Shown piece after piece: positions 1-54,527 of a DNA stretch of 64,000 nt. Positions within the stretch are counted from its first letter, which is position 1, and each line of letters starts with the position of its first letter. A model generated the notes under the pieces. It was not told where the DNA came from, ran no database searches, and saw only the letters and a list, made by a program, of their open reading frames with translations. The position numbers and the translations under genes were made by a program. The stretch lies in contig JAHIUD010000072.1 of assembly GCA_018817515.1 (NCBI GenBank), positions 1-64,000 of the forward strand. The letters run 5' to 3'. The stretch is from Pseudomonadota bacterium. Its GTDB lineage: Bacteria > Desulfobacterota > Desulfovibrionia > Desulfovibrionales > Desulfovibrionaceae.

Positions 1-61
1 CGGAGGTGACCCTCGCGGAGGTGACCTTCCTGCGGCGGCTGCCCCTGGGAGCCCTGGCGGC

Positions 62-1633
62 TCATGCGGCGGGCCTCTTTCCCGGCCCGATATCCGGCCT
101 GATTTTCAGAACCTTCGGTCCAGCGATTATCCGCGCCCCGGCGGCGCGGGCGATGTTGCGCAGCATGGCCGGGAACAGCAGGCCGTGGGCGGGCCACATG
201 GCCCACCAGTAGGCCAGGCCCCACAGCCCGCGCGGCTGGAAGCTGGTCAGGAGCAGGATGTCCGTTGCTCCGCCCCCGGCATCGGTCCGTGGCGAGAGGC
301 GCAGTTCCAGGGTGGCCGCGCCCGGCAGCTTCATCTCGGCCAAAAGGAGCAGGCGTCGCTCCGGTTCGGCCGCCAGCACGCGCCAGAAGTCCACGGTGTC
401 GCCCTCGATGAGCTGCTCGGCGTCGCGGCGGCCACGGCCATGCCCCGGCCCGCCCGCGAGCTTGTCCACAAACCCGCGTATGCGCCACAGGCTGTCGCCC
501 GCATACCAGCCGGTATTCCCGCCGATGCGCCGGACCGCGTCCCAGACCTGCGCAGGATCGGCGGCCAGGGTGGCGGCGTAGTCGGCCCGAAACAGCGTGC
601 CCCCGGCAAAGCCCGCGTCCCCGGCGCGCGTCCACTCCGCCGGGCAGGACGCGGCTGCGCCGAGCTCCCTTGGCGCGCAGGGCGTCCCGGCATCGAAGCA
701 GCAGGTGGCCGCACCGCCCTGGCGGGTCTCGGACAGGGCCTCGGTGATGGCCTCCCCGCAGCCCAGGAGCGTTTGCGGAACCAACTCCAGAATGCGCGCG
801 TCGCGGCAGACGACCTCGTTTCGCAGGCCCTCGATGAGCGGGCGCACCAGGTGCGCGGGCACGGGCGTGATGAGGTTGACCCAGAAGGCGGACAGCCCAG
901 GAGTCAGCAGCGGCACCGGGATGATGAGCGGGGCGCGGATGCCCGCCGCCCGAGCGTAGATGCGGAAAAGTTCGCCGTAGGTGATGACGTCCGGCCCGCC
1001 GATGTCCAGCGTCAGCCCGCTGGTGGCCGGGTTCTCCAGGCAGCCCAGGAGATAGCCCAGCACGTTGGATACGGCGATGGGCTGGCAGCGGGTGCGCACC
1101 CAGAGCGGGGTGATCATGAGCGGCAGGCGCTCCACCAGGGCGCGGATGATCTCGAACGAGGCGCTGCCCGAACCCAGGATCACCGCCGCGCGCAGCACAG
1201 TGGCCGGCACCGGGCCCTCGGAGAGGATGCGCCCGACCTCGGAACGCGAGCGCAGATGCTCGGACAGGCCGGGGGCGTCATCCCCCAGCCCGCTCAGGTA
1301 AATGATGCGCCCCACCCCGGCCTCGGCAGCGGCCTGGGCCATGTTGGCGGCGGCCTGGCGGTCGGTCTGGGCGAAGTCCCCTCCCGCGCCCATGGAGTGC
1401 ACCAGATAATAGGCCACGGAGCAGCCGCGCATGGCGGCCACGAGGCTGGCCTTGTCCGCGACGTCGGCGGCGAAGATGCGCAGGTCCGGGTGTTGCCCCC
1501 AGGGCCGGGCCGCCAGCTTGCGCGGGCTGCGCACCGCCGCGTGGACCCTGTACCCGTGCGAGAGCAAAAGCGGGGTCAGCCGCCCGCCCACATAGCCGGT
1601 AGCCCCGGCAACGAATACGGCGTCCTGCGCCAC
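62..1633 (-). CDS. NAD(P)-binding SDR/NmrA-type protein with C-terminal DUF2867-like region
   Basis: N-terminal Rossmann motif VFVAGATGYVGGRL; long C-terminal domain typical of DUF2867 fusion proteins. Confidence 0.8.
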   Translation of the reverse strand: MAQDAVFVAGATGYVGGRLTPLLLSHGYRVHAAVRSPRKLAARPWGQHPDLRIFAADVADKASLVAAMRGCSVAYYLVHSMGAGGDFAQTDRQAAANMAQAAAEAGVGRIIYLSGLGDDAPGLSEHLRSRSEVGRILSEGPVPATVLRAAVILGSGSASFEIIRALVERLPLMITPLWVRTRCQPIAVSNVLGYLLGCLENPATSGLTLDIGGPDVITYGELFRIYARAAGIRAPLIIPVPLLTPGLSAFWVNLITPVPAHLVRPLIEGLRNEVVCRDARILELVPQTLLGCGEAITEALSETRQGGAATCCFDAGTPCAPRELGAAASCPAEWTRAGDAGFAGGTLFRADYAATLAADPAQVWDAVRRIGGNTGWYAGDSLWRIRGFVDKLAGGPGHGRGRRDAEQLIEGDTVDFWRVLAAEPERRLLLLAEMKLPGAATLELRLSPRTDAGGGATDILLLTSFQPRGLWGLAYWWAMWPAHGLLFPAMLRNIARAAGARIIAGPKVLKIRPDIGPGKRPAA

Positions 1634-1636
1634 GCG

Positions 1637-1933
1637 CTAATCCCTGTCCTTGGACTTCCAGCCCAGGCGCTTCAGGCAGTCGGCCAGGGCCGTCTCGCGC
1701 GCGTCGCCCTGGGGCTGGGCGCCGATCTTGTCCTCACAGAACTTCGAGTCCTCCACAAAAAGCATGTCCTCCTTGCGCGGGTCAGGCTGCTCTGGGTGTG
1801 TCCAGGCCTTGGACTTGGGCAGGCAGCCGCCCAGGCTCAGGGCCAGCAGGATCACGGCGGAGCTGCGAAGACAGTGGCGAAGGGTTCTGGACTTCAGGCG
1901 CATGGTTCCTCCGAAAGTGTCACGATGGGACAT
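1637..1933 (-). CDS. small putative lipoprotein
   Basis: Signal peptide plus lipobox (LSLGGC); 98 aa. Confidence 0.6.
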   Translation of the reverse strand: MSHRDTFGGTMRLKSRTLRHCLRSSAVILLALSLGGCLPKSKAWTHPEQPDPRKEDMLFVEDSKFCEDKIGAQPQGDARETALADCLKRLGWKSKDRD

Positions 1934-2478
1934 CAGGGCAGCGCGAGCTCGGCTGCCGGGGCCACCTGGGCGAAGACCGCGCCCAAGGCCGCCAGATAGG
2001 CAGTCTGCACATCGGCGGCGGCCACGCTCCGGCCAGCAAAGGCAAGCTCGCGGGTGGCGCAGGCGTCCGCCGCCAGACGCACGCTGAAGCCCAGGTCAAA
2101 GGCCGCGCGCACGGTGGTGTCCACGCACATATGCGTCATCATGCCGCACACGGTCAACCGCGTGGCGGACATGCCGCGCAGGATGTCGAGCAGGTTCGTG
2201 TCGCGGAAGGAGCTGGGGAAGTGCTTGAGCACCACCGACTCGCCGGGCAACGGGACCACGCACGGGTGAATCTCCGCGCCGCTGGTGCCCGGCAAAAAGA
2301 AGGTCGCGCCGGGCCGGAGGTTCTCGTGGCGCACGTGGATCACGGGCAGCGAGGCCGCGCGGAACCGGGCCAGCACGCCTGCGGCCACCTGCCCGGCGGC
2401 CAGCGCGCCCTCAAGCTCCATTGCCCCGCCGGGGAAATAGTCGTTCTGGATGTCGATGATGAGGAGGACGTCGGACAT
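1933..2478 (-). CDS. isochorismatase-family cysteine hydrolase
   Basis: LLIIDIQNDYFPGG, and TRLTVCGMMTHMCVDTTVRAA catalytic Cys region. Confidence 0.88.
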   Translation of the reverse strand: MSDVLLIIDIQNDYFPGGAMELEGALAAGQVAAGVLARFRAASLPVIHVRHENLRPGATFFLPGTSGAEIHPCVVPLPGESVVLKHFPSSFRDTNLLDILRGMSATRLTVCGMMTHMCVDTTVRAAFDLGFSVRLAADACATRELAFAGRSVAAADVQTAYLAALGAVFAQVAPAAELALP

Positions 2479-2640
2479 GTGGCGCTCCGCAAACGAGAGT
2501 CGCGGCCCTCGCTATACGATGAGACGAAGGTCCGCGCTCGCGCAGTGTAGCAGAGATTGTCCGGTCCGCCAATGACCGACTGTCCCTTGTCGCCCCGTGC
2601 CCGACATGCGCCTGGCCTCTGCCCCGGCACAGAATTGATC

Positions 2641-2657
2641 TTGACATTCAATTTCAA
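2641..2657. promoter_or_regulatory. candidate Fur-like palindrome overlapping a -35 TTGACA
   Basis: TTGACATTCAATTTCAA, a near-perfect palindrome; TTGACA then N17 then CTATGA. Confidence 0.35.
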
Positions 2658-2776
2658 TTCACACTATGAGGGCCCACGAACGCTGAATCGCCTAGCAATG
2701 ACAGCTTGCCTAACTAGGCGGACGCGACGGAACATGCCCCCGCATGCGCACCAGGCCATATGCAAGGAGGATCGAC

Positions 2777-3538
2777 ATGCTACTTTTGACAAGCGGCGGC
2801 GCGCCGCACAAGGACTGTTCCGGGGCCGAGCCCGGCGGGTGCTCGGGAAAATGCGGCGGGCTCGGCGCCTGCGCCATGAACACGGCGCACCAGTTGGCCG
2901 AATCCCTTGGCCGGGCCGTGGACGCCCGCGACCGGCGGCTCTCGCGGCACTCGGAGCTGGTGGCCGAGATATCAGGGCTGCTGGCCAGAACGCATGGACT
3001 CACCGCCCGGCAGGCGGAGCTGGTGCACATGGCCGGACACCTGCACGACATCGGAAAAATCGGCGTGCCCGACGCCGTGCTGCACAAGCCCGGCCCACTC
3101 TCCCCACAGGAATGGGCCCTGGTGCGCGAACACCCCCGCCTGGGCGCGGACATCCTCTGCCCGGTGCACGTGTTCCGGGGTCCGCACAGCGTCTGCGAGA
3201 TGGTGCTCTCGCACCATGAGCGCTTCGACGGCACAGGCTATCCGCGCGGCCTTTCCGGCCATGGCATCCCCCTGGGTGCGCGGCTGGTAAGCGTTGCCGA
3301 CGCTTTCTGCGCCATGACCGAAGACCGCCCCTATCGCCAGGGCATGTCCATCGACGATGCGGTCCAGGAAATCGAGAATTCGGCCGGTACCATGTTCGAC
3401 CCGTGCGTGGTCAAGGACTTCCTGCGCATCCGGCTGCTTCTGCCGGGCCTGCTGCTGGGCGGCAGCGGCATGTCCTGCGCCCTGCCCTGGGGCGCGCCAG
3501 GAGTCCTTCATTGCGCCCTGGCGCCAGGAGAGATATAG
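2777..3538 (+). CDS. HD-GYP domain phosphodiesterase with Cys-rich N-terminus
   Basis: AAGGAGG RBS before ATG 2777; GHLHDIGKIGVPD and HHERFDGTGYP motifs. Confidence 0.85.
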   Translation: MLLLTSGGAPHKDCSGAEPGGCSGKCGGLGACAMNTAHQLAESLGRAVDARDRRLSRHSELVAEISGLLARTHGLTARQAELVHMAGHLHDIGKIGVPDAVLHKPGPLSPQEWALVREHPRLGADILCPVHVFRGPHSVCEMVLSHHERFDGTGYPRGLSGHGIPLGARLVSVADAFCAMTEDRPYRQGMSIDDAVQEIENSAGTMFDPCVVKDFLRIRLLLPGLLLGGSGMSCALPWGAPGVLHCALAPGEI

Positions 3539-3557
3539 AGAGGAGGAAAGAGAGGTT

Positions 3558-3704
3558 TCAGGCCAGAATGCGCCTGTACACGGAGCGCTCGTAGGCCTTG
3601 CAGAGGCGGCGCGCCAGGGCTTCGGTCAACCCGGCCTGCTGCAATCTGCAGTAGATATGCAGGGGGTTCAGGATATGCTGCAGTTGGTGGCGCATGTTGT
3701 TCAC
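3558..3704 (-). CDS. small (48 aa) hypothetical protein
   Basis: GTG start preceded by AAGGAGG on the minus strand; NPLHIYCRLQQAGLTEALARRLCKAYE. Confidence 0.45.
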   Translation of the reverse strand: MNNMRHQLQHILNPLHIYCRLQQAGLTEALARRLCKAYERSVYRRILA

Positions 3705-3757
3705 AATGTCCCCCTCCTTGCCGGGGCTCGCCTCATGGCGAAAATTAAGCAAAAGGC

Positions 3758-4684
3758 ATGCCCGTATTGAAAAGCGCAGCAAATCCCAGCGGGTCGTTTT
3801 CGGCGACAAAAACCGGGCGGCAAATTCCCGCCAGGGCTGATCTGCACGCCCTCGCCTCTGAGGCCGCCCGGGCCGCTGGAATCACCGGCTATGCGAGCCT
3901 GCCGCCCTGGAGCCTGGCCGCGCCCTCCTGCGTGCTGCCAGCCGATGTGGGAACAAATTGCACGGCCCTGGCCCGGCACTTCCCGGAGCTGGGCCTGTGC
4001 TTCTTCGAAACCGGGGCCTGCCTGGGCTACACCGAGGCCGACCTGCCTGCGGACTTGCGCACCCTGCCGGTGCGCTGGCATATGCACCTGCCCCTGGACC
4101 TGCCCTGGACCGGGGGCGCTGATGCGGTGGCCAAGGCAATCCTGGCCCTGGCGGAAAAGGTTGCAGGACTCGCGCCCTGGGCTTATGTTCTGCACCCGCC
4201 GGAGGCGCCGGACGACCTGCGCGGGGGCGGCGCGGAGCAACTGCGCTGCGTGGCCCTGGCCCTGAAAGAGCGCGGCATCAGCCCCGAGGCGCTGCTGGTG
4301 GAGAACATCAGGGGCCGCGACCTGGAGACCATGTGGCCCGTGGTGCGCGAGCTGGGCCTTGGCGTGTGCCTGGACCTGGGCCACATGCTGGAACGTGGCC
4401 AGGAGGATTTTCTCACCCTGCCGGGGTTGTGGGTCCACGCGCGCATGCTGCACCTGAATGCCCCGGACGAGGCCAGGCCGGGCCGCCACGCCGCGCTGGA
4501 CCGGCTGGACGCCGCAGGACAGGCGGTTTTGGGCCGGATGCTCTCGTCCTTCGCTCCTGGCGGCAGCGTGGTGCTGGAGCTGTTCAGCCCGCGCGAACTG
4601 TTCGATTCGCTGCGCTTCGTTCAGACCTTTTGGGCCGACCTGAACGGGAACAATGCGGACGGGCGCAAGGAGGATACTGCGTGA
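3758..4684 (+). CDS. cbiR: TIM-barrel AP-endonuclease-2-like protein, probable cobamide-remodeling phosphodiesterase CbiR
   Basis: Sugar-isomerase-like TIM barrel (LLVENIRGRDLETM, VCLDLGHML) directly upstream of cobU. Confidence 0.65.
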   Translation: MPVLKSAANPSGSFSATKTGRQIPARADLHALASEAARAAGITGYASLPPWSLAAPSCVLPADVGTNCTALARHFPELGLCFFETGACLGYTEADLPADLRTLPVRWHMHLPLDLPWTGGADAVAKAILALAEKVAGLAPWAYVLHPPEAPDDLRGGGAEQLRCVALALKERGISPEALLVENIRGRDLETMWPVVRELGLGVCLDLGHMLERGQEDFLTLPGLWVHARMLHLNAPDEARPGRHAALDRLDAAGQAVLGRMLSSFAPGGSVVLELFSPRELFDSLRFVQTFWADLNGNNADGRKEDTA

Positions 4685-4771
4685 TCACTTTCGTCATCGG
4701 TCGGATATCGCACCCACGGACTGCCCCGCCTGGGCGCAGGGAGGATACTGCGTGATCACTTTCGTCATCGG
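4661..4771 (+). repeat. 40 nt direct repeat (39/40 identical) at 4661-4700 and 4732-4771 spanning RBS and start of cobU
   Basis: gggcgca[a/g]ggaggatactgcgtgatcactttcgtcatcgg present twice. Confidence 0.95.
4681..4755 (+). other. 24-codon mini-ORF created by the repeat, overlapping cbiR stop and cobU start (GTGA/GTGA)
   Basis: VITFVIGRISHPRTAPPGRREDTA; GTG 4681 overlaps cbiR TGA, TGA 4753-4755 overlaps cobU GTG 4752. Confidence 0.6.
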
Positions 4772-5285
4772 CGGCAACAAATCCGGCAAGTCGGACTTTG
4801 CCCTGGGCCTTCTGGAACGCACCAGCGGCCCCAAGCTTTTTTTGGCCACGGGCCAGGCCAAGGACATGAGCTTTCGCAAGCAGATCGCGCGGCACCGTGA
4901 CCGCCGCGACCCGGCGCTCCCCGTGGTGGAGGTCGGCTGGGACTTGCCACGGGCGCTGCTGGAGGCTAAGAAGGACCATGCTGCCGTGCTCGTGGACAGC
5001 CTGGATTTCTGGCTGTACCTGTGCATGCAAGAGCAGCGCGAGGCCGACCTGACCCAGGCTTTGCTCGATATCTTGAAGACTTGGAATGGTCCGGAACTCA
5101 TCCTTGTATCCTGCGAGATCGGTTTTTCTCCCCTGCCGGGATCGAGCGAGGCAAGAACCTTTTTGAAAAGACTTGGCCGGTTGAACCAGGCTGTGGCGGC
5201 CCTGGCCCACGAGGCTCATCTCGTGGTGGCGGGCATGCCGCTGGCGCTGAAAAAGGCGGAACATGGCGATCCCAAAGCTGATTGA
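4752..5285 (+). CDS. cobU: bifunctional adenosylcobinamide kinase/adenosylcobinamide-phosphate guanylyltransferase
   Basis: VITFVIGGNKSGKSDFA P-loop; LFLATGQAKD; RHRDRRD. Confidence 0.85.
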   Translation: MITFVIGGNKSGKSDFALGLLERTSGPKLFLATGQAKDMSFRKQIARHRDRRDPALPVVEVGWDLPRALLEAKKDHAAVLVDSLDFWLYLCMQEQREADLTQALLDILKTWNGPELILVSCEIGFSPLPGSSEARTFLKRLGRLNQAVAALAHEAHLVVAGMPLALKKAEHGDPKAD

Positions 5286-6258
5286 CGAAAAAGCCCAGAC
5301 GCTGCTCTCGCTCCTGAACAAGGACCAGCGCTGGCTCATCGTCATCAACGCCGACCCGGACTCCATGGGCTCGGCGTTGGCGCTCAAGGCCATCCTCTCG
5401 CGCAAGGTCCTGGACATCGGCATCGGACACGTCAACGAGATCAACCGCCCGGACAACCTGGCCATGATCCGCTACCTGCGCGTGCCCACCCGCAGGCTCA
5501 TCCCGAACCTCATCGCCCAGTACGACCGCTTCGCCCTGGTGGACTCCCAGCCGCACCACCACCCGGAACTGGAAAAGCTCAACTATTCCATTATCATCGA
5601 CCACCACCCGACCCTGCCGGACAAGCCCGTCACCGCGCCGTTGACCGACATCCGGCCCAAGTACGGCGCCACCTGCACCATGCTCACCGAATACTTGCAG
5701 CACCAGAAGATCCGCCCCCCAAAGCTGCTCGCCTCGGCCCTGCTCTACGGCATCAAGGCCGACACCCAGAACTTCCAGCGCAAGTTCATCGACGCGGACA
5801 TCAACGCCTTCAAATATCTTTCCAAGTACGCCGACCACACGCTCATCACGCGCATCGTGCGCAGCGAATACCACCTGGAGTGGATGCGCTACTTCTCGCG
5901 CGCGTTCTACAACCTGCGGCGCATCGGCACCGGGCTCACCGCGCATCTGGGCAAGGTCCAGAGCCCGGACATCCTCGTGGTGGTGGCCGACTTCTTCATG
6001 CGCGTGCACTCCATCTCCTGGGACGCCGTGAGCGGCGTGTTCGGGGACAAGCTGGTGGTCATCTTCCGGGGCGACGGCATCCGCAAGGACATGGGCAAGT
6101 TCGCGGCCAGCCACTTTGCGGACATGGGCTCGGCCGGCGGCCACAAGGGCGCGGCCCGGGCCGAGCTACCGCTGGAGGCCCTGGACGGCAAGGACCCGGA
6201 GATGTTCGTGCTCAAAAAGCTCTCGCGCGGGAAAACCGCCAGCGTCCAGCGGATCTAA
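5263..6258 (+). CDS. DHH-family phosphoesterase (NrnA-like)
   Basis: INADPDSMGSALAL, VDSQPHHHPEL, IIDHHPTLP, GGHKGAAR motifs. Confidence 0.88.
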   Translation: MAIPKLIDEKAQTLLSLLNKDQRWLIVINADPDSMGSALALKAILSRKVLDIGIGHVNEINRPDNLAMIRYLRVPTRRLIPNLIAQYDRFALVDSQPHHHPELEKLNYSIIIDHHPTLPDKPVTAPLTDIRPKYGATCTMLTEYLQHQKIRPPKLLASALLYGIKADTQNFQRKFIDADINAFKYLSKYADHTLITRIVRSEYHLEWMRYFSRAFYNLRRIGTGLTAHLGKVQSPDILVVVADFFMRVHSISWDAVSGVFGDKLVVIFRGDGIRKDMGKFAASHFADMGSAGGHKGAARAELPLEALDGKDPEMFVLKKLSRGKTASVQRI

Positions 6259-6261
6259 TCC

Positions 6262-9126
6262 ATGTCCCTCAAGCACCGTCTGAACCTCGACGACCGCGAC
6301 CCGCTCTTCGTCGTCGACGGCACCAGCTTTCTGTACCGCGGCTTCTACGCCTTCCCGGACCTCAAGCGCTCCGATGGCATGCCCACGGGCGCCATCTACA
6401 TCGTGCTGCGCATCCTTTTGCGCATTCTGAAGGATGAAAAGCCCAAGTATCTTGGCTTCTTCATGGACGGCAAGGGCCCGACCTTCCGCCACGCCATGTT
6501 CGAACCCTACAAGGCCCAGCGCCCCAAGATGCCCGAGGACCTGGCCGCGCAGATCGAGCCCCTGCGCGAGGCCATCCGCCTGCTCGGCCTGTCGCTCACC
6601 ATCAGCGACGGCGTCGAGGCCGACGACTGCATCGCCAGCCTGGCCGCCGCGCACCACGAAACGCGGCCGGTGATCATCGTGGCCTCGGACAAGGACTTGA
6701 AGCAGTGCCTGACCGACAACGTCTACATGTGGGACCCGGCGGGCAAGAACGAGAAGGTCAGCGGCATCAAGGAATTCGTGGCCGAGAACGGCATCATCCC
6801 GGCCCAGTGGCCGGACCTGCAGGCCCTCATGGGCGACACCTCGGACAACATCCCGGGCCTCCCCGGCGTGGGGCCCAAGACCGCGCTCAAGATCATCCAC
6901 GAGTTCCCCACCCTGGAAGCCGTGCGCGATAATTTCGACAAGTTGCCCGAGAGCTTCCGCAAGAAGCTCGACGGCCACATGGACGACGTGTTCCTCTACC
7001 GCGAGCTGACCCGGCTCAAGGCCGACTGCTGCCCGGATCTGGACCTGGGCCAGCTTGCCGTGCGTCCGCCCGACCCCCAGAAGCTGGCCGAGTTCCTGCG
7101 CGCCTACGAATTCAAGAGCCTGCTGCGCGACATCCCCGCGCCGCCCGCGCCGCTGAGCCCCACCGAGGCCGCCGTGGCCGCCTGGTCCGGCCCGCCGCCC
7201 TGGGAGGACGGGGCCATCCATGTGGGGCCCAGCGCCCCCGCGCCAGCGCCCCAGGCCACGCTGCTTACGCCCTATGCCGCGCCCGCAGCCGCCCCGACTG
7301 CGCCGAAGAAGGCCACGCAGAGCGCCAAGACAGCCCAATTCTCGCTCTTCGGCGCAAGCCCGGACGCCCCGCTGCCCGTTGCGCCCAGGCCCGCCAGCGA
7401 CCTGCCCCTGCGCACTGTGGCCGACCCGTCCGCCCTGCCCCCGGTGGCTGGCAAGCGCGTCGGGCTGGTGCCGCCGGAGAATGCAGGCGAGCCCTTCCGG
7501 CTGGCGCTGGAAGGCGAAGCCGTCGAGATCGCCTACACCGGACCGGAGGAGGCCCTGGCCGCGCACGTGGCCAAGGCCGAGCGTATCGCCGCACCCAGCC
7601 TGCAGGAGCTTCTGCGCCGCAGCACGGCCTGGGGCCAGCCAAAGCTGTCGCTCTGGTTCGACCTGGGCCTGGCCGCCTACCTGCTCCGCCCGGAGGACCG
7701 CAACTACACTTTCGAGCGCCTGCGGCTGTCGCTCTTTGCGCCGCAGGACCTGGACGACACCCCCCTGCCCGATTCGGACATTTCCGATGCCGACGAGCTC
7801 GCACCCGCGCCTGATGACAACGAGCCCGCGCCGCATCCCGAGGCCCGCGCCCTGGCCGCGCTCGCCCTCATGCGCTCGCTGGAAAGACGCCTGGGCAAGG
7901 CCGGGCTCAGCGACCTCCTGCGCGACCTGGAGCTGCCGCTCGTCCCGGTGCTGGCAGACATGGAACGCCGGGGCGTGCGCATCGATTTCGCGGCCTTCAA
8001 GAGCTTCCTCGGCGAGGTCAGCGCCCAGGTGGAACACCACGGCAAGCGCGTGCAGGAGCTGGCAGGCGGGCCCATCAACGTGCGCTCCAGCCAGCAGCTG
8101 GCCGAGGTGCTGTTCAAAAAGCTCGGCCTCAAGCCCGCGGGCAAGACCCCCGGCGGGGCGCTGTCCACCGGCAGCGACGCCCTGGAGCGTCTGAGCGGCC
8201 AGCATCCCATCATCGAGGAGATCCTGGCCTTCCGCGTGGCCGAGAAGCTGCGCTCCACCTACCTGGAGCCCATGCCGCGCCTGGCCGACGCCGAAGGCCG
8301 CCTGCACACCCGCTTCAACCAGCTGGCCACGGCCACGGGCAGGCTGTCGAGCTCCGGGCCGAACCTCCAGAACATCCCCATCCGCGGGCCCCAGGGCGCG
8401 CGCATGCGGGCCTGCTTCATCGCCTCGCCGGGCACGCTCCTGGTGGGCGCGGACTACTCCCAGGTGGAGCTGCGCGTGCTGGCGCATTTTTCCCAGGACC
8501 CGGCCCTGCTGGACGCCTTCCAGAAAGACGAGGACATCCACAGCCGCACAGCCGCCCTGCTCTTTGACAAGGACGCGGCGGAGATCACCTCGGACGAGCG
8601 GCGCGGGGCCAAGACCATCAACTTCGGCCTGATCTACGGCATGGGCCCGCAGAAGCTGGCCCGCGAACTCGGCATCAGCGTGAACCAGGCCAAGGAGTTC
8701 ATCAGCCGCTACTTCGAGAAGCTGGGGGCCTTGAAGGCCTTCTACGAAGAGCTGGTGGAGGACGCCATGCTACGCGGCTACGTGACCACGCTGGCCGGAC
8801 GGCGCAGGCTCCTGCCCGAGTTGCACTCGCGCAATCAGCAGGCCCAGGCCCAGGCCCGCAGGCAGGCCGTGAACACCGTCATCCAGGGCTCCGCGGCGGA
8901 CGTCATCAAGCTGGCCATGCTGCGCGTGCACGCCGACCAGCGCCTGGCCGAGCTGGACGCCCGGCTGATCCTCCAGGTCCACGACGAACTGCTGCTCGAA
9001 GCCCCGGAAGCCGCGGCGGACGAAGCCGCACAGCTCCTGCGCGGGCTCATGCAGAATGTCACCACCCTGCTGGTGCCGCTCAAGGTGGACCTGGGCACCG
9101 GCCTGACGTGGGCAGATGCGCACTGA
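6262..9126 (+). CDS. polA: DNA polymerase I
   Basis: 5' nuclease domain plus family A polymerase motifs (DYSQVELRVLAH, RRGAKTINFGLIYGMG, LQVHDELLLEAP). Confidence 0.96.
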   Translation: MSLKHRLNLDDRDPLFVVDGTSFLYRGFYAFPDLKRSDGMPTGAIYIVLRILLRILKDEKPKYLGFFMDGKGPTFRHAMFEPYKAQRPKMPEDLAAQIEPLREAIRLLGLSLTISDGVEADDCIASLAAAHHETRPVIIVASDKDLKQCLTDNVYMWDPAGKNEKVSGIKEFVAENGIIPAQWPDLQALMGDTSDNIPGLPGVGPKTALKIIHEFPTLEAVRDNFDKLPESFRKKLDGHMDDVFLYRELTRLKADCCPDLDLGQLAVRPPDPQKLAEFLRAYEFKSLLRDIPAPPAPLSPTEAAVAAWSGPPPWEDGAIHVGPSAPAPAPQATLLTPYAAPAAAPTAPKKATQSAKTAQFSLFGASPDAPLPVAPRPASDLPLRTVADPSALPPVAGKRVGLVPPENAGEPFRLALEGEAVEIAYTGPEEALAAHVAKAERIAAPSLQELLRRSTAWGQPKLSLWFDLGLAAYLLRPEDRNYTFERLRLSLFAPQDLDDTPLPDSDISDADELAPAPDDNEPAPHPEARALAALALMRSLERRLGKAGLSDLLRDLELPLVPVLADMERRGVRIDFAAFKSFLGEVSAQVEHHGKRVQELAGGPINVRSSQQLAEVLFKKLGLKPAGKTPGGALSTGSDALERLSGQHPIIEEILAFRVAEKLRSTYLEPMPRLADAEGRLHTRFNQLATATGRLSSSGPNLQNIPIRGPQGARMRACFIASPGTLLVGADYSQVELRVLAHFSQDPALLDAFQKDEDIHSRTAALLFDKDAAEITSDERRGAKTINFGLIYGMGPQKLARELGISVNQAKEFISRYFEKLGALKAFYEELVEDAMLRGYVTTLAGRRRLLPELHSRNQQAQAQARRQAVNTVIQGSAADVIKLAMLRVHADQRLAELDARLILQVHDELLLEAPEAAADEAAQLLRGLMQNVTTLLVPLKVDLGTGLTWADAH

Positions 9127-9228
9127 CCTGCGCCGGACAGACGCGCGCTAACCTGCAAGAGGCCGGTGCGCTCCGTCTTTCATGAAATCCCTTTCACGCC
9201 GGGCGCAACTGCGCTAGGAAGAGACCCC

Positions 9229-10053
9229 ATGCAGTCCCCGCACTCCACAAGCCCCCACACCGCAATCCTGCTCGCCGCCTTCGGCTCGCGCCTGCCCGAC
9301 GCCTCCCAGGCGCTGGAGCGCATGCGCGAACAGGCGAGCGCGCTGCACCCGGAGTTCCGGGTGGAGACGGCCCTGACCTCGGGCACGGTGCGCCGCCACA
9401 AGGGCGTGCAAAGCCGCCACGGCCGCTCGCCCGAGGACATTCTGAAGGCCCTGCGCAAGGACGGCGTCACGCGCCTGGCCGTGCAGTCCCTGCACGTCAT
9501 CCCCGGTGACGAGTACAAGGGCCTGGAGCGCCTGGTGGAGAGCCTGCGGGCCAGGCCCGGGCATCCGGGCGGCTTCGAGCAGATTGAACTTGGCCGCCCG
9601 CTTCTGGGCAACCGCGAGGACATCCGCCGCGTGGCCCTGACCATCCTCACTGTGCTGCCGCCCGAACGCAAACCCGGCGAGGCCGTGCTGCTCATGGGCC
9701 ACGGCACGCGCGGCAAGGCCAACGGCGTGTACCTGGACCTGGCCGACGAGCTGCGCGCCCTGGACCCCCTCGTGCTCATCGGCGCGCTGGAGGCCGAGCC
9801 GGGGCTGGCGGCCAAGGTCGACGAGCTGCGCGAACTGGGCGCAAGCCGGGTGCACCTCATGCCGCTTTTGTTCGCCAGCGGCGTCCACGCGCAGCGCGAC
9901 ATGGCCGGAGAGGGCAAGGGTTCCTGGCAGGCCGGACTGACGCGCGCAGGCTTCACCTGTTCCTCCCACGTCAAGGGCGCGGGCGAGCACCAGGGCCTGG
10001 CCGAAATCTGGCTGAACCACCTGCAAGAGGCCGTGGCCAGGCTGGGGGCGTAA
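9229..10053 (+). CDS. cbiK: sirohydrochlorin cobaltochelatase (CbiK family)
   Basis: TAILLAAFGSRLPDA, TSGTVRRH, VQSLHVIPGDEY, LLMGHGTRGKAN, LMPLLFASGVHAQRDMAG. Confidence 0.88.
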   Translation: MQSPHSTSPHTAILLAAFGSRLPDASQALERMREQASALHPEFRVETALTSGTVRRHKGVQSRHGRSPEDILKALRKDGVTRLAVQSLHVIPGDEYKGLERLVESLRARPGHPGGFEQIELGRPLLGNREDIRRVALTILTVLPPERKPGEAVLLMGHGTRGKANGVYLDLADELRALDPLVLIGALEAEPGLAAKVDELRELGASRVHLMPLLFASGVHAQRDMAGEGKGSWQAGLTRAGFTCSSHVKGAGEHQGLAEIWLNHLQEAVARLGA

Positions 10054-10177
10054 GTCCACCAGGCCTCCCCCGTCCGGTCGCCGCCCCCGCGCCCCCCCCC
10101 TCGACGAACGCCCCCTGATCTGGCATGAATATCCACAAGGGAACTTTTTTGACCGCACAGCCAAGCAAGGAGCGGAC

Positions 10178-10567
10178 ATGGGCGAGGAAATCAAGGTACT
10201 CGTGTGCGACGACGAGGAACGTTTTCGCAACACCCTGGGCAAGCTATTGACCTCCCACGGCATGACCGTGACCATCGCCGAGAGCGGGGCCGCGGCCCTG
10301 GACATCCTGCGGCGCGAGCCCCACGACATCGTGCTCCTGGACGTCAAGATGCCGGGCTTAAGCGGCCAGCAGACCCTGCCGGAGATCAAGAAGATCGACC
10401 CGGACATCGAGGTCATCATCCTCACCGGCCACGCCTCTGTGGACATCGCCGCGGAGATGATGGCCCACGGCGGCTCGGACTACCTGCTCAAGCCCTACCC
10501 CATGGACGAGCTGCTGGGCATCATCCACATCGCCTTTGACCGCCGCAAGACGGCGAAGGGACTCTAG
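10178..10567 (+). CDS. single-domain response regulator
   Basis: Receiver domain: VLVCDDEERFR, VLLDVKMPGLSG, LTGHAS, LLKPY. Confidence 0.9.
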   Translation: MGEEIKVLVCDDEERFRNTLGKLLTSHGMTVTIAESGAAALDILRREPHDIVLLDVKMPGLSGQQTLPEIKKIDPDIEVIILTGHASVDIAAEMMAHGGSDYLLKPYPMDELLGIIHIAFDRRKTAKGL

Positions 10568-10575
10568 GCTCAAGC

Positions 10576-11364
10576 ATGCGCATCATCCGCGTCCGCCACA
10601 AGGGCCTGGCCTTCTACGCCGCCATCGTGAGCCCAGAGAGCGTGCGCCCGCTGAACCGCGAGGCCGGTCAGCCGGAGGAGATCCCCCTGGCTGAGCTGGA
10701 GCTCTTGTCCCTGATCCGGCCGAGCAAGGTCGTCTGCGTGGGCCTGAACTACCTCGACCACGCCCGCGAGATGGGCCTGGCCGTGCCCGAGGAGCCCATC
10801 CTCTTCCTCAAGCCGCCCTCCTCGGTCATCGGCGCGGGCGACGCCATCGTGCTGCCCGCCAGCTCCGAGCAGGTGGACTACGAGGCCGAGCTGGCCCTGG
10901 TCATGGGCCGCACCGCCCGCTATGTCAGCGAGGACGCCGCCGCCCAGCACATCTTCGGCTACACCTGCGCCAACGACGTCACCGCCCGCGACCTGCAGAA
11001 GAAGGACGGCCAGTGGACCCGCGCCAAGGGCTTCGACACCTTCTGCCCCGTGGGCCCGTGGATCGAGACCGAGCCCGGCGACCTGGGCTCGCTGGCGCTG
11101 CGCACCGTGGTCAACGGCGAGGTCCGCCAGGAGGGCAACACCGCCAGCATGATCTTCCCGCCGCACCTTCTGGTGAGCTACATCTCAAACATCATGACCC
11201 TGCTCCCCGGCGACGTGATCCTCACCGGCACCCCGGCGGGCGTCGGGCCCATCCGGGCGGGCGACGAGGTCAGCGTGGAGATCGACCGGGTGGGCTTCCT
11301 GCAAAACACCGTCATCGGCGAGAGGATCGACGAGAGCCTCGACGAGCCCACGGCCATGCAATAG
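10576..11364 (+). CDS. fumarylacetoacetate hydrolase family protein
   Basis: VCVGLNYLDHA, EAELALVMGRTAR, NDVTARDLQKKDGQWTRAKGFDTFCPVGP, LLPGDVILTGTPAGVG. Confidence 0.93.
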   Translation: MRIIRVRHKGLAFYAAIVSPESVRPLNREAGQPEEIPLAELELLSLIRPSKVVCVGLNYLDHAREMGLAVPEEPILFLKPPSSVIGAGDAIVLPASSEQVDYEAELALVMGRTARYVSEDAAAQHIFGYTCANDVTARDLQKKDGQWTRAKGFDTFCPVGPWIETEPGDLGSLALRTVVNGEVRQEGNTASMIFPPHLLVSYISNIMTLLPGDVILTGTPAGVGPIRAGDEVSVEIDRVGFLQNTVIGERIDESLDEPTAMQ

Positions 11365-11553
11365 CCCCCGCCGGGGCGCCAGCCACCGGTCCCGGGGCGG
11401 CCTTTGGCAGCCTCATTTTCCGCTTGCCAAACGATCCCATCCGACGTAAAAGCACACGTTTCACAAATCACACGCCCTGGCCACATACTGGGTGCCCCGG
11501 ATGTTCCGGGGAATGGCCAAGCGCCAGGGCGGAGGAAAAACCCAGGAGGATTC

Positions 11554-12330
11554 ATGGCTTACGTTACTATGAAGCAGATGCTGGAGACCGGCGTCCACTT
11601 CGGTCACCAGACCCGTCGTTGGAACCCCAAGATGCGCACCTTCATTTTCGGCGCGCGCAACGGCATCCACATCATCGACCTGCAGCAGACCGTGAAGCTG
11701 TTCCAGAAGGCCCACGACTTCATCGTCGAGACCGTGGCCACCGGCGGCAAGGTCCTGTTCATCGGCACCAAGCGCCAGGCCCAGGAGGCCATCAAGGCCG
11801 AGGTCGAGCGTTGCGGCATGCACGCCGTGACCCAGCGCTGGATGGGCGGCACGCTCACCAACTTCCAGACCATCAAGAAGAGCATCGACCGTCTGAAGAG
11901 CCTGGAAGCCATGTTCGCCGACGGCACCATCAACAAGTTCCCCAAGAAGGAAATCGTGCAGATGGGCCGCGAAGTGGTCAAGCTGAACGACGCGCTCGGC
12001 GGCATCAAGGACCTGAACGAAGCCCCCCGCGCCGCCTTCATCATCGACCCCAACCGCGAGCACATCGCGGTCAAGGAATGCCGCAAGCTCGGCATCCCGG
12101 TCGTGGCCGTGGTCGACACCAACTGCGACCCGGACCTCATCGACTACGTGATCCCCGGCAACGATGACGCCATCCGCGCCATCAAGCTGTTCGCCACCCA
12201 CATCGCCGACGCCTGCATCGAGGGCGCCGCCGTGATGAAGGAAAACGCCCCCGGCGGCGCCAAGAACGCCCCGGCCAAGGACGAAGCCCCCGAGGCCGCC
12301 GAGAAGGCCGCCGAAGGCGGAGAGGAGTAA
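11554..12330 (+). CDS. rpsB: 30S ribosomal protein S2
   Basis: [35 protein letters not shown]. Confidence 0.97.
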
Positions 12331-13774: not shown

Positions 13775-14329
13775 ATGCATGCTGTCATCGAAGACGGGAA
13801 AAAACGCATGGATGGCGCTTTGACGAGCCTGGCCAAGGAATTTTCGCGCCTGCGCACGGGTCGGGCCTCGGTGTCGCTCATCGAGCCCATCATCGCCGAC
13901 TATTACGGCACGCCCACGCCAGTGAGCCAGATCGCATCGCTCTCCGTGCCAGACGCCCGCACCATCACCATCCAGCCCTGGGACAAGCATGCCTTCGGCG
14001 CGGTGGAGAAGGCCATCCTCAAGAGCGACCTGGGCCTGAACCCGGTCAACGACGGCAAGGTCATCCGCATCAGCATGCCGCCCCTGACCGAGGACCGCCG
14101 CAAGGACCTGGTCAAGGTGGCCAAGAAGTTCACCGAGGAAGGCAAGGTCGCCGTGCGCAACGTCCGTCGCGACCTGAACGAGGTCTTGAAGAAGCTCCAG
14201 AAGGACAAGGACATCACCGAGGACGAGCAGCGCAAGCTCACCGAGGACGTTCAGAAGCTCACCGACGAGACCATCAAGAAGTGCGACGAGATCTTCGCGG
14301 TCAAGGAAAAGGAAATTCTGGAGCTGTAG
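13775..14329 (+). CDS. frr: ribosome recycling factor
   Basis: [30 protein letters not shown]. Confidence 0.96.
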
Positions 14330-52593: not shown

Positions 52594-53205
52594 ATGATGA
52601 AAGCGTTGACCAAGAGCTTGGCTCTACTGGCCCTGAGCCTGCTCCTCAGTGCTCCACTCGCAGGCGGCGCCTTGGCCAGCAATTACTACCCCAACGACAT
52701 CAACACGCTGTCGACCTTCCTCTCCGGGGCGGCTTACACCCAGTATACCGGCGCGCCCCTTACCGGGGCCTATGACCTGACGCCCCTGGGCTTCGAGGCT
52801 GGCGACACCATCCAGTTCAAATCCGCCGTCGCCGGGGACGTCCTGTTCACCAACAAGAATCTGGCCGCCGAGTTCGCCAAGGGCTGGAAGACGGCCGATC
52901 TGGGCAGCGCCATTTTCAACGACCTCACCACAACCCTGAAGACGAGCGTCAACGACCTGAACAGGGTGGCGGTGCTGCAACTGACCCAGGCCTGGACCTT
53001 GAGCAGCGGCCTGACCCTGAACGCCGGCACCCTTATTCTTGGCCTCAATGACGACGGCTCCAAGGACGGCGACTTCGACGACTTCATCCTCGCCGCCAAG
53101 GCCGCGCCCACGCCCGTTCCCGGCGCGGTGTGGCTGCTGGGCAGCGGGCTGCTCGGCATCATGGGCTTCAAGCGCACGCGCAAGGCCCTCGCGGTCCAGT
53201 CTTAA
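52594..53205 (+). CDS. secreted protein 1 with PEP-CTERM-like (VPGAVW) sorting signal
   Basis: Signal peptide; C-terminal PTPVPGAVWLLGSGLLGIMGFKRTRK. Confidence 0.85.
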   Translation: MMKALTKSLALLALSLLLSAPLAGGALASNYYPNDINTLSTFLSGAAYTQYTGAPLTGAYDLTPLGFEAGDTIQFKSAVAGDVLFTNKNLAAEFAKGWKTADLGSAIFNDLTTTLKTSVNDLNRVAVLQLTQAWTLSSGLTLNAGTLILGLNDDGSKDGDFDDFILAAKAAPTPVPGAVWLLGSGLLGIMGFKRTRKALAVQS

Positions 53206-53225
53206 AGAGAATGGCGGAGAGGAAT

Positions 53226-53846
53226 ATGCGCGGATTGAAGAAATGGATCGGCACAGCGGCCCTGCTTGCCGCGCTGACTCTTGGAGCCTTTGCCGAGGCC
53301 CAAGCCAGCTACACCACTCCCGCAGACTGGTATCCCTACGACATCACGGACCTCAAGACCTTCATGAAGGGCGCGAAGTATGCGGACGTCTCCGGCACTG
53401 CGCTCAGCGGCGTGTATAATGTCACCGCCCTGGCCTACCAGTCCTACCTCACCGACCAGTTCCGCGACTCCAGCAAGGACGTGTTGTTCACCAACAACCT
53501 GACCTCCGGCTACGGCACCAAAACCGCTGACCTGACCAGCGCCAGCTTCCGCACCACCGGCCTGTACGGCAATGCCAACCTCGACTTCGTCACCCTGCTG
53601 ACGGATGCGACCCGGGTCCATATTTACGAACTGACCAAGGACTGGGCCCAGATGGGGCTGACCGCCGGCACCCTGATCATCGGCATGAACGATGACGGCA
53701 TAAAGAACGCCTGCACCGACGATTTTGACGACTTCATCCTGGCCGCGTCCAAGGCCGCGCCCACGCCCGTTCCTGGTGCCGTGTGGCTGCTCGGCAGCGG
53801 CCTGCTGGGCATGATGGGCTTTAAGCGGGCACGCAAGAAGGCCTGA
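53226..53846 (+). CDS. secreted protein 2 with PEP-CTERM-like sorting signal (paralog of protein 1)
   Basis: Signal peptide; PTPVPGAVWLLGSGLLGMMGFKRARKKA; body similar to 52594-53205. Confidence 0.85.
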   Translation: MRGLKKWIGTAALLAALTLGAFAEAQASYTTPADWYPYDITDLKTFMKGAKYADVSGTALSGVYNVTALAYQSYLTDQFRDSSKDVLFTNNLTSGYGTKTADLTSASFRTTGLYGNANLDFVTLLTDATRVHIYELTKDWAQMGLTAGTLIIGMNDDGIKNACTDDFDDFILAASKAAPTPVPGAVWLLGSGLLGMMGFKRARKKA

Positions 53847-53891
53847 GGCCCAAGCTTGCAAGACGTTTCGCCACTTGCTTGACCTTGGGCC
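53847..53891 (+). other. long hairpin after secreted protein 2
   Basis: GGCCCAAG-ctt-GCAAG...CTTGC-ttgac-CTTGGGCC. Confidence 0.6.
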
Positions 53892-53933
53892 ATGGCCCAG
53901 CTTCCGCCACGATGACGACAACCTACATGGGGG

Positions 53934-54527
53934 ATGAGCGATATGAAGAAAGCACTGGTCACCACATGCCTGAGTCTCGTGATGCTTCTGGCCGTCGCCG
54001 CCAGCGGCTACGCCTCTGTCTGGACCGCCACCGACGGCGTCGGCACGACCTACGTCAAGCCCACCAGCCTGACGCCGGGGTCCAACGCCTGGAGCAGCGG
54101 CCCGGTGGAAGTGAGCGCTTCTGCCCTCGCAGGCCTGTCGAATCTCCTGTTCACCTTTGACTACATCGCGGTGGGCTCCTGGGACAGCGTGGCTGGCACC
54201 AAGCCGGACAAGCAGGCGACCGTTGACCACTTCTTCGTCAGCATCTTCAACGGTGTCGACACGTTGACGTATGAAAGCATCGTGGACCAGAACCTGCCCA
54301 CCGACTCGCAGGCCGTGCACCTGGAATACCTGCTGCCGAAGATCGCCGGAACGTACGTCTTCCAGGCCATCGGCCAGATGACCGCCACCGACGAGAAGTG
54401 GATACTCTCCGGCGCTTCGCTGGGCTCCAGCTCCACCCCGACCCCGGTCCCCGGCGCGGTGTGGATGCTCGGCAGCGGCCTTCTGGGCCTCATGGGCTTC
54501 AAGCGCGCGCGCAAGAACGCCGCCTAG
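53934..54527 (+). CDS. secreted protein 3 with PEP-CTERM-like sorting signal
   Basis: Signal peptide; TPTPVPGAVWMLGSGLLGLMGFKRARKNAA; divergent body. Confidence 0.85.
   Translation: MSDMKKALVTTCLSLVMLLAVAASGYASVWTATDGVGTTYVKPTSLTPGSNAWSSGPVEVSASALAGLSNLLFTFDYIAVGSWDSVAGTKPDKQATVDHFFVSIFNGVDTLTYESIVDQNLPTDSQAVHLEYLLPKIAGTYVFQAIGQMTATDEKWILSGASLGSSSTPTPVPGAVWMLGSGLLGLMGFKRARKNAA

Follow-up and report, generated by a model that had tools for sequence, protein, structure and literature searches.

How a gene junction comes to carry the same translation start twice, and whether the short reading frame created in this way matters for the downstream gene, are the questions raised by the cbiR-cobU junction in a window of 64,000 nt, i.e., the whole stretch of DNA analysed here. 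Going by its named relatives, the host genome lies in or near Humidesulfovibrio. The names cbiR and cobU, given to the two genes by a first-pass annotation of the window, were upheld by profile matches (Table 1), and the cbiR product scored under the cut-off of the PF01261 profile. The coordinates of cbiR are those of the longest open reading frame (ORF), with a provisional start. The CbiR enzyme family has been described in Akkermansia (PMC7733943).

Table 1. Coordinates of the features at and around the cbiR-cobU junction (positions in the window; SD, Shine-Dalgarno sequence).
Feature	Position	Strand	Evidence
cbiR, cobamide remodelling phosphodiesterase	3758..4684	+	NF041277 coba_remo_CbiR, 181.5 bits, E=1.9e-53, residues 51-289
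Repeat copy 1 (cbiR 3' end, SD, GTG, start of cobU)	4661..4700	+	Repeat comparison
Mini-ORF SD, AAGGAGG, 7-nt spacer	4667..4673	+	Duplex with canonical anti-SD core, -11.4 kcal/mol
Mini-ORF, 24 codons	4681..4755	+	GTGA overlaps at 4681-4684 (cbiR) and 4752-4755 (cobU)
Filler, 31 nt	4701..4731	+	No second match found in databases searched
Repeat copy 2	4732..4771	+	Repeat comparison
cobU SD, AGGGAGG, 7-nt spacer (G where copy 1 has A)	4738..4744	+	Duplex with canonical anti-SD, -11.1 kcal/mol
cobU, adenosylcobinamide kinase/guanylyltransferase	4752..5285	+	PF02283, E=3.9e-37; start region conserved in the genus
Operon context: DHH-family phosphoesterase gene that overlaps the 3' end of cobU	5263..6258	+	PF01368, E=1.2e-12

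The junction harbors a 40-nt direct repeat whose copies are identical at 39 of 40 positions, are offset by 71 nt and enclose a 31-nt filler (TCGGATATCGCACCCACGGACTGCCCCGCCT). Copy 1 is continuous with the body of cbiR and copy 2 with that of cobU, and the sole mismatch between them (A4668 versus G4739) falls within the SD. A mini-ORF, with the translation VITFVIGRISHPRTAPPGRREDTA, begins in the upstream copy; it has no Pfam match, and its peptide ends ahead of the CobU P-loop (GGNKSGKS). Its GTG (4681-4683) overlaps the cbiR stop codon TGA (4682-4684), while its own TGA (4753-4755) overlaps the cobU GTG (4752-4754), so that the -4 nt stop/start overlap of gene pairs coupled by termination-reinitiation is found at both edges. 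The first-pass annotation had described the repeat, its offset and separation, and the doubly overlapping ORF with coordinates that were all correct. An Rfam search of positions 1-12000 returned nothing at the junction and one sub-threshold match elsewhere.

A repeat of this kind is not expected by chance. Under a simple independent-base model, about 2e-12 repeats matching at 39/40 within 200 nt are expected in 3.6 Mb, and a chance origin is excluded under that model. For the frequency of short-range repeats, 218 kb of the same genome and 100 kb of relatives served as a sample, and a scan of the window found no other short-range repeat of comparable quality. Repeats of other kinds were also seen. 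In the window, a 109-nt repeat occurs three times at 53076-54515, around 650-680 nt apart and with 74-82% identity to the first, and probably represents repeated protein domains. At L049 (G000:C2), positions 14158-14276, a 29-nt repeat with a 90-nt offset corresponds to an in-frame 30-residue protein repeat (MDKQTFGAAVV..) within a small minus-strand ORF, i.e., an ordinary coding repeat. A GC-rich 23-nt tandem repeat in nearly three copies lies at L055 (G000:C8), positions 915-978, and a 53-nt tandem repeat occupies the very start of a contig at L057 (G000:C10), positions 1-119, possibly a VNTR at which the assembly stopped.

The junction was then compared in relatives, with one genome per species. 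CobU was found in 13 of the 14 other genomes of the genus, and the comparison covered ten genus loci (L035-L044) and one locus from another genus of the family (L046); one of the 13 genomes (L015/L045), in which the contig starts within cobU, was left out of the count. All ten genus junctions carry a single copy, and nine of them show a direct cbiR-cobU GTGA overlap. In the exception, L042 (2978-3003), the overlap has been lost, the cbiR stop lying around 20 nt upstream and cobU starting with TTG behind a strong SD. The junction of L046 has an ATGA overlap. No 14-mer repeat was found near the cobU start in L035-L044 or L046, and when the genus was searched for paired cobU starts 40-70 nt apart, this genome alone, one of 15, fitted the pattern. 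The single-copy junction of the relatives and the restriction of the two-copy pattern to this genome together show that the 71 bp are a derived, lineage-specific insertion or partial duplication at an ancestral GTGA overlap. This bears out the first-pass annotation, which had spoken of an insertion and proposed this very comparison. Since each edge of the insertion carries the ancestral overlap, both the C-terminus of CbiR and the N-terminus of CobU are unaltered.

As to the age of the duplication, the near-identity of the copies had originally been taken as a sign of recent origin or selection, an argument that lost weight once the same 40-nt stretch was found to match L037 and L038 at 36-37 of 40 positions; in the cobU genes of these two, third positions are only 77-79% identical to those of this genome. 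For cobU, identity to the four nearest relatives is 88-90% at the nucleotide level and 75-79% at third positions. Since the stretch is this well conserved in two congeners, the 39/40 match is only weak evidence of recency and does not by itself require a very recent origin or selection; it fits a duplication that postdates the divergence from the closest species sampled. Copy 1 probably kept the older base at the variable SD position, because an A is found there in four of the five nearest relatives.

With regard to the source of the filler, no other match with up to three mismatches was found in its own genome, and among 288 family genomes it was present, at the same threshold, in this one only; viral contigs gave no exact match. 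Its origin as diverged cobU codons following copy 2, which a simple 73-nt tandem duplication would imply, was not supported by global alignment against random window segments (P=0.18). Similarly, a derivation from nearby DNA gained no support, as local scores of 13-15 on both flanks were inside the null range. The earlier description of the spacer as unrelated sequence thus stands, inasmuch as it has no significant similarity to the following cobU or to the flanking DNA. Local partial tandem duplications arise by replication slippage or end joining and resemble this case in giving a short-range direct repeat in one lineage. However, the unit of a simple tandem duplication equals the repeat period and has no foreign filler, whereas here 31 nt separate the copies. 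We infer a duplication with non-homologous filler.

A misjoined stretch is conceivable in a draft of 114 contigs when the feature is known from one genome, but it is improbable: the feature totals 111 nt, which ordinary reads can span, the copies differ by one base, and the assembly holds no other copy of the filler to misjoin. Furthermore, assemblers usually collapse repeats rather than create one around a unique filler. The architecture also matches that of the mycobacterial interspersed repetitive units (MIRU), small elements that target start codons and bring along a short ORF with -4 nt coupling (PMC12548453). Such an element is highly improbable here, and this reading is largely refuted by the lack of other copies. 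MIRU are dispersed in multiple genomic copies, whereas the 71-nt unit and its filler are unique: in the genome the unit matches its own locus only, apart from 14-19 nt matches at chance level, and the filler recurs, at up to three mismatches, in no other genome among the 288 of the family. Over half of the unit, 40 of 71 nt, was copied from the local junction, and the case concerns a single locus in a non-mycobacterial genome, with no sign of mobility.

The account that we favor, with somewhat more confidence than doubt, is an illegitimate 71-bp insertion with a translated relay mini-ORF, near-neutral in effect. A lineage-specific event added 71 bp at the cbiR-cobU junction and left a 40-bp direct repeat flanking a 31-bp filler. 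Ribosomes ending cbiR would start again at the duplicated GTG, read through the 24 codons of the mini-ORF and then reinitiate once more at the native cobU GTG, aided by the second strong SD. In three E. coli gene pairs, reinitiation fell by 80-90% or was abolished at a spacing of 38 nt, and around 20 nt nearly abolished coupling in E. coli reporters (PMC10666635). Given this steep fall with distance, an untranslated spacer of 67 nt would be expected to uncouple cobU, and the mini-ORF would serve as a relay keeping cobU coupled over this otherwise untranslated gap; as both copies retain a strong SD, such a preservation of termination-reinitiation is plausible. Overall, CobU would probably be affected only slightly, the variant is most likely near-neutral, and the mini-ORF peptide probably has no function of its own.

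Known -4 nt pairs coupled by termination-reinitiation (PMC6728339, PMC10666635) share with this junction the 4-nt stop/start overlaps, an SD near the overlap and co-directional genes of one pathway, but here a third cistron of 24 codons, derived from duplication of the junction, lies between the genes. Short ORFs that hand ribosomes to a downstream gene have also been discussed (PMC12548453). They likewise end at the downstream start; the present one differs in lying inside an operon and in being itself fed by an overlapping upstream gene.

It may equally be that cobU initiates de novo from its own strong SD, the relay then being irrelevant. A real duplication left as a passive scar, with a mini-ORF without influence, is a possible but rather unlikely alternative. 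It is in line with the SD retained by copy 2, whose duplex strength falls within the range of the relatives' cobU SDs (-7.7 to -12.2 kcal/mol) and whose mean local accessibility (0.35) nearly equals that of the mini-ORF SD (0.37). A strong weakening of cobU by the SD substitution was rejected, the change being only 0.3 kcal/mol. Coupling at both ends also comes cheaply: once the overlap is copied, it requires only an offset of 3n-1 and a filler without an in-frame stop, and when fillers of 30-32 nt were shuffled, 28% of them gave a double overlap. On the other hand, downstream genes of other pairs depended strongly on the overlap in reporters (PMC10666635), and the overlap is retained by nine out of ten relatives within the genus, which suggests that coupling matters here. 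A more adaptive role, a leader favored for tuning CobU relative to CbiR, could claim the intact coupling and the near-identical copies, but is quite improbable. No second lineage among those compared has two copies, SD strength and accessibility scarcely differ, and, given the frequency among shuffled fillers, preserved coupling is no argument for an adaptive leader. The earlier statement that the insertion preserved coupling holds for the -4 nt overlap at each end, which does not argue for selection. Purifying selection could, however, have purged insertions that uncouple cobU. In sum, the whole feature is most likely an accident of local duplication.

The feature is real, derived, known from a single genome and of modest interest. 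It is unlikely, though conceivable, that duplication of overlap junctions offers a route to new coupled mini-cistrons without a mobile element, which slippage between the 40-bp repeats might later remove, with heritable variation in CobU dosage as a result. The junction lends itself to testing if reinitiation over a spacer can be rescued by a short relay ORF, and it provides a natural example of an operon taking up DNA at a stop/start overlap with its proteins unchanged and the overlap unbroken.
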